Positions 57,145-59,698 of a stretch of DNA of 64,000 nucleotides are shown here, piece by piece (position 1 is the stretch's first letter; the number at the start of each line of letters is the position of its first letter). The stretch covers positions 39,320-103,319 of the forward strand of contig CACBPT010000002.1 of the NCBI GenBank assembly GCA_902541245.1, in the 5' to 3' direction. Source of the stretch: an uncultured SAR86 cluster bacterium (lineage in GTDB: Bacteria; Pseudomonadota; Gammaproteobacteria; Magnimaribacterales; D2472). Below the pieces are notes generated by a model that worked only from the letters and a program-made list of their open reading frames with translations, did no database searches and had not been told where the DNA came from. A program made the position numbers and the translations under genes.

Positions 57145-57220
57145 TGGTGGAGCTAGGCGGGATCGAACCGCCGACCCCCTGCTTGCAAAGCAGGTGCTCT
57201 CCCAGCTGAGCTATAGCCCC
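57145..57220 (-). tRNA. tRNA-Ala(TGC)
   Basis: Reverse strand GGGGCTATAGCTCAGCTGGGAGAGCACCTGCTTTGCAAGCAGGGGGTCGGCGGTTCGATCCCGCCTAGCTCCACCA folds as 76-nt cloverleaf with encoded CCA, anticodon TGC. Confidence 0.97.
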
Positions 57221-57371
57221 ATACAGGTTGATAATTGTACAAGATATCTTTTGCAGTGCAATATTGTCTTTTCAAAAATAAAAATCTCGCAAGGAGCCAA
57301 TAAAAAATCTATAATCAAACATTAAAATGTTATCAAAGACTTTGGGAAAAGAAGTCTCATCATTTTATTGA

Positions 57372-57489
57372 CTCCTTTTGAGATGGTTCCTCAAAGGAGG
57401 CTACCGTAAACCCTGTGTTCGTCTTAGGGAACTTATGAAGGGTTCAGGGAGTAAAGCTACCACAACTTTTAATGGCAACCTCCTATGAG
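57372..57489. ncRNA. Unassigned structured RNA candidate (possibly divergent short 6S-like RNA or leader)
   Basis: 16-nt arms CTCAAAGGAGGCTACC (57390-57405) and GGCAACCTCCTATGAG (57474-57489) pair with one mismatch and two wobbles; inner CCCTG (57411-57415)/CAGGG (57445-57449); alternative hairpin CTCCTTTTGAG (57372-57382)/CTCAAAGGAG (57390-57399); no ORF of track length in the gap. Confidence 0.45.
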
Positions 57490-57496
57490 AAAATTG

Positions 57497-59698
57497 TTAT
57501 AACTTGTAACTAAATCCTAATTTAAATGTTTGAGGTTTTTGCGATCTTGCCCCACTTTTTGGAGCTCTAGCAGCAATGTCCTCATTATCTGTAACGTTTT
57601 CTAATACGCCATATACATCTAACTTTTCACTCATTCGCTTTCTTATAGAAAGATCTATAAAGCTATAGGAATCTATGTTCTCGAAAGCACCACACTGAGC
57701 AGTAGAACAAGAGCTTCCATGATCTGCCAATCTTAAATATCCACTCCAGCCACTTTCAGCAATGAAGCCTGCACTTAGTGCTAAGACTGAACTAGGGATA
57801 TATGGAAGGTCATCTCCAGATGCCACAATACCAAAATAGTCACTGTCGAAGCTGTTTTCAAAGGTCGCATCAGTTGATGTGAATGTTAAGGCTAAAGGGA
57901 AACTTACCCCATCTCCTTCGATAACCATCGATCCATCAACTTCTAAGCCAGAAACATCAACTTCTCCACCATCAAAAGTGTCGCCAGGATCACAGTCTCC
58001 ACCATTAGAGTTTTTACACTCTGCAACTAAATTTGCATAATCGCTTGAGAAATACATTACTTCGAGAGCAGTGGTGCCTTTGTTATATCGAAAACCTAAT
58101 TCGATATTATCAGCTTCCTCAGCGTCACCATTAAAGACAGGTGACATGCCTTGATGAAAACCAGCAACAAGCTTTAGGTTTTCATTCATGTCATAAGTTG
58201 CCCCAATTCCTGTAGTTGAATAATCGCCACTGGATTTTTTATTGATATATCCTGATTTTGGTTGAGTTCTGCTTCCTGAAACACCGTCATCCCATCTATT
58301 TTCAACTTTGTCATATTCTTCTGATCTGTATCCGACGGTTACTGTCAACCTGTCCATTGAAATAGTATCTTGAACAAAATAGGATGTAGCATCAGTTTCT
58401 CTTAATCTATTATTGCTGCTTGTGAAACCAGTACCACAATTATATAGAGCTGAGTTTGTTCCAGAAGCGCTTTGTTGAAAACATTCATATCCCTGCATTC
58501 TACTCTCATAGTCCTCTAGGTCTCTGTAACCAAAAGTTAGAGAGTGATTTTCTATATCAGTAGATACTTGAAACTGGATACCTTCATTCCCATAGAATCT
58601 ATTATTGTGCTTTAACTTTACTTCAGTAGCTTGAGTGCCATCAAGAATTCCTTGAGCAATTGCATTACCAGCATTTGCTGCCTCAATAACTCCATTTATA
58701 CTATTACTAACTCCGCCTGTCTTGCTGTTATTTGCTTTATCAACTTTGAACCAATCTCTATGATAATCATTGCTAAATGACGTCAGAACTATATCAACAT
58801 TACCAAAAGACCCTTTGTATGTTATAGATTCTTGTTCTCCATCATTATCCATCATGTCATATTGAGTCATCCCATAACGCATTCTTGGGTTCTTATTAAA
58901 GCTTGCCTGTGAAAGACCTACATATGTTTGTTCAGAGGACTCATCTAAATCAAGATATTTGAATGTAACCTCGTGATCTCCAGATGAATAACGCAGCTTA
59001 ACTAGCATGTCAGATTTTTGAAAACCTGTATCACCACCTACATTAGCAATAGAATCAAAACCATCAGTAGCATGTTCATGAAATTCAACCATGCCACCAA
59101 ATGTTCCATTATCTCCACCCATAACTGCATGAGATCTAGTCATGCCATTATCTCCAATTTCTTGGACAAATTTACCTCTTCCTTCTGTGGGAATTGGTGT
59201 ACTTATGAGGTTTAAAGCTCCTCCAATCGTACTAGGGCCCTGCGTAATAGCAGATGGGCCTTTGAGAACCTCAACAGCATGGATTCTTCCCGTTGTAGGG
59301 AAATAGTATGCTGATGCAGACGTATAAGGAGCAGGAGCAACTAACACACCATCTTCCATAATAGTTATTTTGCCAGATCTATCTAAACTTGTTCCCCTTA
59401 TAGAAATGTTAGGCCTTAAGCCATAACCATCCTCTGTTCTGAAAAAGACTCCGGGTACAGCAGAGAGAATTTTATGTATATCTGTATCAATTACTTTTTG
59501 CAGATCTTCATTAGAAATTACTGTTACAGATCCAGGAATATTTGAAGGATCTTCAAAAGTTCCTATAATGCTGACAGATTCAATTGTCTCAAGATCGTAA
59601 TTTGTATTAGCAAAAGCTGGAACAAAAAATAGAATTGCAAGCAATCCCATAATTACAAAATGTATTTTTGTATGAATATTAGGCCATTTGTTTTCCAT
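57497..59698 (-). CDS. TonB-dependent siderophore/iron receptor (FecA-like)
   Basis: Plug domain SVIGTFEDPSNIPGSVTVISNEDLQKV...RPNISIRGTSLDRSGKITIMEDGV; C-terminal TFKLGFSYKL; Fur-box-like site upstream. Confidence 0.92.
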   Translation of the reverse strand: MENKWPNIHTKIHFVIMGLLAILFFVPAFANTNYDLETIESVSIIGTFEDPSNIPGSVTVISNEDLQKVIDTDIHKILSAVPGVFFRTEDGYGLRPNISIRGTSLDRSGKITIMEDGVLVAPAPYTSASAYYFPTTGRIHAVEVLKGPSAITQGPSTIGGALNLISTPIPTEGRGKFVQEIGDNGMTRSHAVMGGDNGTFGGMVEFHEHATDGFDSIANVGGDTGFQKSDMLVKLRYSSGDHEVTFKYLDLDESSEQTYVGLSQASFNKNPRMRYGMTQYDMMDNDGEQESITYKGSFGNVDIVLTSFSNDYHRDWFKVDKANNSKTGGVSNSINGVIEAANAGNAIAQGILDGTQATEVKLKHNNRFYGNEGIQFQVSTDIENHSLTFGYRDLEDYESRMQGYECFQQSASGTNSALYNCGTGFTSSNNRLRETDATSYFVQDTISMDRLTVTVGYRSEEYDKVENRWDDGVSGSRTQPKSGYINKKSSGDYSTTGIGATYDMNENLKLVAGFHQGMSPVFNGDAEEADNIELGFRYNKGTTALEVMYFSSDYANLVAECKNSNGGDCDPGDTFDGGEVDVSGLEVDGSMVIEGDGVSFPLALTFTSTDATFENSFDSDYFGIVASGDDLPYIPSSVLALSAGFIAESGWSGYLRLADHGSSCSTAQCGAFENIDSYSFIDLSIRKRMSEKLDVYGVLENVTDNEDIAARAPKSGARSQKPQTFKLGFSYKL

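Follow-up and report, generated by a model that had tools for sequence, protein, structure and literature searches.

What occupies the 276-bp gap between the stop codon of a TonB-dependent receptor (57497) and the tRNA-Ala gene in an uncultured SAR86 bacterium, and what could an RNA read from it be doing? An earlier note on the window, the whole stretch of 64,000 nucleotides analysed here, had placed in this gap a structured RNA with two mutually exclusive helices, in which the segment 57390-57399 (ctcaaaggag) pairs either with 57480-57489 (ctcctatgag) as part of a long helix or with 57372-57382 (ctccttttgag) as a hairpin; letters, coordinates and the length of the gap all check out. The minus strand of this region also contains AAGGAG-N8-ATGATG..., which opens the frame MMRLLFPKSLITF, and an element on that strand runs in the same direction as both of its neighbours, the receptor and the tRNA. 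The region singled out at the time (57372-57489) spans one hairpin, H1, and reaches into one arm of another, H2, which had been missed. The parts of the element and its surroundings are the following.

57497-59698, minus strand: TonB-dependent receptor (Pfam PF00593 and PF07715), stop codon directly before H1
57286-57491, minus strand: whole structured RNA element (H1 and H2), ~206 nt, from alignment A2 of 15 genomes, the consensus structure and pair counts
57388-57491, minus strand: hairpin H1, ~104 nt (fold z -4.55 in the window's copy; model R1)
57474-57491, minus strand: 5' arm of H1, forming helix P1 (compensatory changes); its inner 10 nt, 57474-57483, can also form helix P1' (pairing of alignment cells)
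57448-57461, minus strand: invariant core GGUAGC-UUUA-CUCC, putative alternative partner of the 5' arm in P1' (alignment and nascent-fold prediction)
57407-57446, minus strand: inner stems P2 (57439-57446 with 57407-57414) and P3 (57429-57433 with 57416-57420) and apical loop CCCUAAGA (consensus fold)
57388-57405, minus strand: 3' arm of H1 in P1, which includes 57390-57399 (compensatory changes)
57286-57382, minus strand: hairpin H2, arms 57365-57382 and 57286-57303, variable loop (compensatory changes)
57234-57261, minus strand: promoter-like TTGCAC-N16-TACAAT upstream of tRNA-Ala, conserved in the alignments; downstream limit of the element
57145-57220, minus strand: tRNA-Ala(UGC)

Folding and covariation of the two hairpins

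The minus strand of 57360-57496 (137 nt) folds at -40.7 kcal/mol with a z-score of -3.4, as good a fold being reached by 0 of 200 shuffles, and the plus strand of the same stretch attains a z of only -0.9. Because only the minus strand folds beyond chance, the RNA, if it is made, is that of the minus strand; averaged over 15 genomes, H1 has a z of -4.4 on this sense strand versus -2.8 on the opposite one. The two-hairpin structure was obtained by aligning 15 loci (A2). Its long helix, P1, joins 57474-57491 to 57388-57405 by 17 pairs including G-U, with one internal mismatch, and the pairing of 57480-57489 with 57390-57399 proposed in the earlier note is real and lies inside it. Changes on both sides are found at 5 pairs of P1 (both copies of genome G009 counted) and compensatory changes at 6 pairs of H2. 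Parsimony on the element's own tree assigns 2 to 6 pair-state changes to the covarying pairs, and several of these changes are therefore independent. The inner stems P2 and P3 are nearly invariant and hence lack covariation support. Thus the structured RNA claimed in the note is borne out by compensatory substitutions in related genomes, in H1 and H2 alike, and the covariation scores of P1 and of H2 across homologous loci exceed those of all 500 shuffles.

A scan of the intergenic regions of G008 in fixed 110-nt windows, which lie out of register with H1, gave the element no high rank, 181 at best by z and 8th by energy. For that reason no exceptional genome-wide folding is claimed and the case is one of conservation and covariation. 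Judged from the aligned sequences, the gap encodes a conserved structured RNA with two hairpins kept by selection.

Conservation within one SAR86 genus

A DNA search recovered the element from 16 genomes of one genus, the window's own and 15 relatives, and the covariance model R1, built from H1, returned these 16 among the 26 genomes of that genus and none among the 81 others of the family (107 genomes); a conserved 22-mer of the element occurs in 14 records, all SAR86. Each genome carries it at one locus, always with tRNA-Ala(UGC) directly downstream. Among the 10 genus genomes without a hit, the tRNA locus and its upstream region are still visible only in G013, so that absence from the others may reflect incomplete assemblies. 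At this locus G013 holds a strongly diverged copy of H1, and H2 is missing there as well as in G009. The latter genome has two tandem, diverged H1 copies and no H2 (L024:980-1238). A hit with 3 mismatches in G063 was rejected as a homologue, since it falls in an apparently coding stretch with neither tRNA nor hairpin.

Between species the H1 core (A2 columns 29-60) shows 99.0% identity, the corresponding values being 51.5% for third codon positions of the receptor, 60% for the H2 loop and 69% for the 70 nt before the tRNA. The motif GGUAGC-UUUA-CUCC itself is unchanged in all 17 aligned copies, save for a single-base insertion in one of the two from G009. As far as sequence comparison can tell, the core is conserved well beyond what pairing explains.

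On the receptor side, 14 of the 15 aligned genomes start the stem no more than a few bases from the stop codon. The body of the receptor in G008 (L089:2939-5029) is that of a different TonB receptor from the one at 57497-59698 in the window, resembling a cassette-like exchange. Conserved in this genome are the DoxX gene before the receptor, the first ~30 receptor codons, which encode the N-terminal signal region, and the RNA, and since the RNA has been retained despite the exchange of the body, it is independent of which receptor precedes it.

The same gap between receptor and tRNA contains simple terminators in the sister genera g2, g3 and g9, and in g10 it is 46 bp long and has no structure. 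In g8 (L135-L139) it is occupied by other long hairpins of ~60-100 nt, largely conserved within that genus; they have no significant similarity to H1 and score no better than chance against its model. With terminators, other hairpins or nothing at this place in the sister genera, the element sits at the position of the receptor's 3' end. A consensus scan found no promoter or terminator at the element, which also lacks the short GC stem followed by a U tract of an intrinsic terminator, and only two clades, the window's own and the adjacent one, have a U-rich tail following H2. The TACAAT of the promoter-like sequence before the tRNA (57234-57261) is conserved across genera of the family; the consensus scan did not call this sequence.

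Predicted nascent folding and a candidate partner-binding RNA

The inner 5' arm of H1, GGAGGYURCC, can pair with the invariant core to form P1'. In alignment A1, 169 of 170 cells of this helix are paired and all changes are one-sided. For the first 58-61 nt the predicted minimum-energy fold includes P1', wholly or in part, in 18 of 18 copies: those of the 15 genomes, the two of G009 and the diverged one of G013. When inner sequences were shuffled (four sequences tested), a match of 10 pairs like this one came up in 0.3-2.2% of cases. In the full hairpin P1 reaches -38 to -45 kcal/mol versus -29 to -32 with P1' forced. These models make P1' a plausible folding intermediate of the nascent RNA. 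Covariation cannot prove it, because the core never varies, and, its changes being only one-sided, P1' may owe its conservation to the invariant core and to the constraint that P1 imposes. The alternative hairpin of the earlier note, in which the 3' arm pairs with CUCAAAAGGAG, can form in the window's copy and is possible in 93% of cells; three of its pairs are broken in 5/15, 3/15 and 2/15 of the relatives' copies, none has changed on both sides, 343 of 500 shuffles pair as well, and its downstream partner is one arm of the covarying H2. Mutually exclusive helices are therefore still plausible, by way of the core, and it is the particular partner 57372-57382 that lacks compensatory support.

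Small RNAs derived from 3' UTRs are known from bacteria, CpxQ and SdhX among them. Like these, the element is a conserved RNA that directly follows the stop codon of a coding gene on the same strand, with conservation beyond that of coding silent sites; unlike these, it mostly ends without an intrinsic terminator, and it belongs to a genus in which neither Hfq nor ProQ was found. Profiles of Hfq, CsrA and ProQ had no match in the 26 genomes of the genus, which are incomplete and may hold distant homologues of Hfq and ProQ, and the control genomes, E. coli among them, were positive. The usual sRNA chaperones thus seem to be missing. A sponge RNA of the CsrB/RsmZ kind was rejected, the CsrA that it would bind not having been found, as was a trans-acting sRNA dependent on Hfq or ProQ, for which no chaperone was found in these incomplete genomes. 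A target screen, confined to start regions and covering somewhere between half and two thirds of the genomes, gave duplex energies for 520 ortholog pairs of two species that equalled those of shuffled controls; the strongest individual hit, a cytochrome oxidase subunit II-like gene, lay at the control mean, and no 12-nt complement was common to two genomes. The literature library searched yielded neither a description of the element nor a paper on SAR86 regulatory small RNAs. Intergenic structured-RNA candidates have been found by covariation in marine and other bacteria, their function being mostly unknown (PMC2704228; PMC2864571). Compared with the descriptions given in these surveys, not with their motif lists, the element is similar in its covariation, its intergenic position and its marine bacterial host, and it has no match in Rfam 15.

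The explanation that we hold to be slightly better than even is a lineage-specific structured noncoding RNA of the minus strand, derived from the 3' end of the receptor, with a core that would bind a partner. Transcription of the receptor would run into the element, and the RNA would end before the tRNA-Ala promoter. The nascent 5' arm would first pair with the core as P1'; once the 3' arm emerges, P1 would displace P1' and leave core segments such as ACUCCC, CUUCA and CCCUAAGA open, to be read in a sequence-specific way by a partner, be it a protein or another RNA. H2 would keep the RNA distinct from the tRNA unit, perhaps also forming or protecting the RNA's 3' end.

Competing explanations and significance

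The main rival to a partner-binding RNA is a purely cis-acting 3'-UTR module, in which the hairpins would end or protect the receptor mRNA, keep transcription out of the tRNA gene and replace the terminators of the sister genera. The position shared with the terminators of g2, g3 and g9, the start of the stem directly after the stop codon and the U-rich stretch that follows H2 in the clade of the window all speak for this module; we nonetheless rate it as possible but rather unlikely, because hairpins that stabilise or terminate need no inner sequence conserved at 99%, most species show no U tract behind H2, G009 and G013 have no H2 at all, and the RNA persists where a different receptor has come in. 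A palindromic repeat or mobile element devoid of cellular function would be in keeping with the tandem duplicate in G009 and with the other long hairpins at the equivalent place in g8, but it is very improbable in view of the single locus per genome, at the same place in every carrier, and of an invariant core for which viral contigs gave no match.

It is also conceivable that the element is a true switch akin to an attenuator or riboswitch, with P1' and the pairing of the 3' arm with CUCAAAAGGAG opposed to P1 and H2 and the outcome deciding between read-through to the tRNA and processing. Overlapping, mutually exclusive helices are indeed what it has in common with attenuators and riboswitch leaders; they form a chain, P1' is kept in all copies and the second pairing is available in most cells. 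Unlike such leaders, the element follows a coding gene and has neither a conserved leader peptide nor a match to a ligand family. The switching leader envisaged in the earlier note does not survive comparison: the 13-codon frame is confined to the window's three-member clade, where it carries substitutions, a different short frame (MRKHGNFLSPSSQV-like) occurs in five genomes, and neither is kept in the remaining seven (L012-L014, L016, L018, L022, L023), which have none or another. A leader or attenuator with a leader peptide was rejected because the short ORF with its Shine-Dalgarno site, whose SD/ATG region lies in or beside the covarying H2 stem, is not conserved. With a second pairing that shows no compensatory change and is broken in up to 5 of 15 copies, a cost of ~6-15 kcal/mol for forcing P1' in the full hairpin, H2 missing from two genomes, and no regulated coding gene but only the tRNA downstream, equipped with its own conserved promoter-like region, we consider a switch distinctly unlikely. 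A divergent or short 6S RNA deserves next to no credence. The likeness consists of a long closing stem around inner loops and a few similar letters (CCCUGA and AGGGUU); unlike 6S RNA, the element is a hairpin of ~104 nt plus H2 and has no match to RF00013 even at E 10; a clear RF00013 6S gene lies at another locus in 23 of 25 congeners, among them 14 of the 16 carriers. In G008 the two share a contig, with 6S at C1:572289 and the element at C1:617063, 45 kb apart; the window's own genome, only 58% complete, yielded no 6S. The 6S identity was rejected on these grounds and is already refuted as far as such tests go. The Rfam 15 search for 6S and riboswitches that the note had suggested returned tRNA as the sole family in the window, and up to E 0.5 nothing but tRNA was matched at 7 related loci: the element matches no catalogued RNA family.

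A more far-reaching version of the partner-binding RNA, which the sequences make imaginable and which we regard as unlikely, is a bistable regulatory RNA that would pass from P1' to P1 and whose exposed core would act in trans, either with no known chaperone or via a new RNA-binding protein. If true, such an RNA would belong to a streamlined ocean bacterium seemingly devoid of Hfq, CsrA and ProQ. SAR86 is among the most abundant bacterial groups of the surface ocean, and an RNA core that hardly varies, in a genus where the search for Hfq, CsrA and ProQ came up empty, may provide a handle on the use of RNA regulators by streamlined bacteria.
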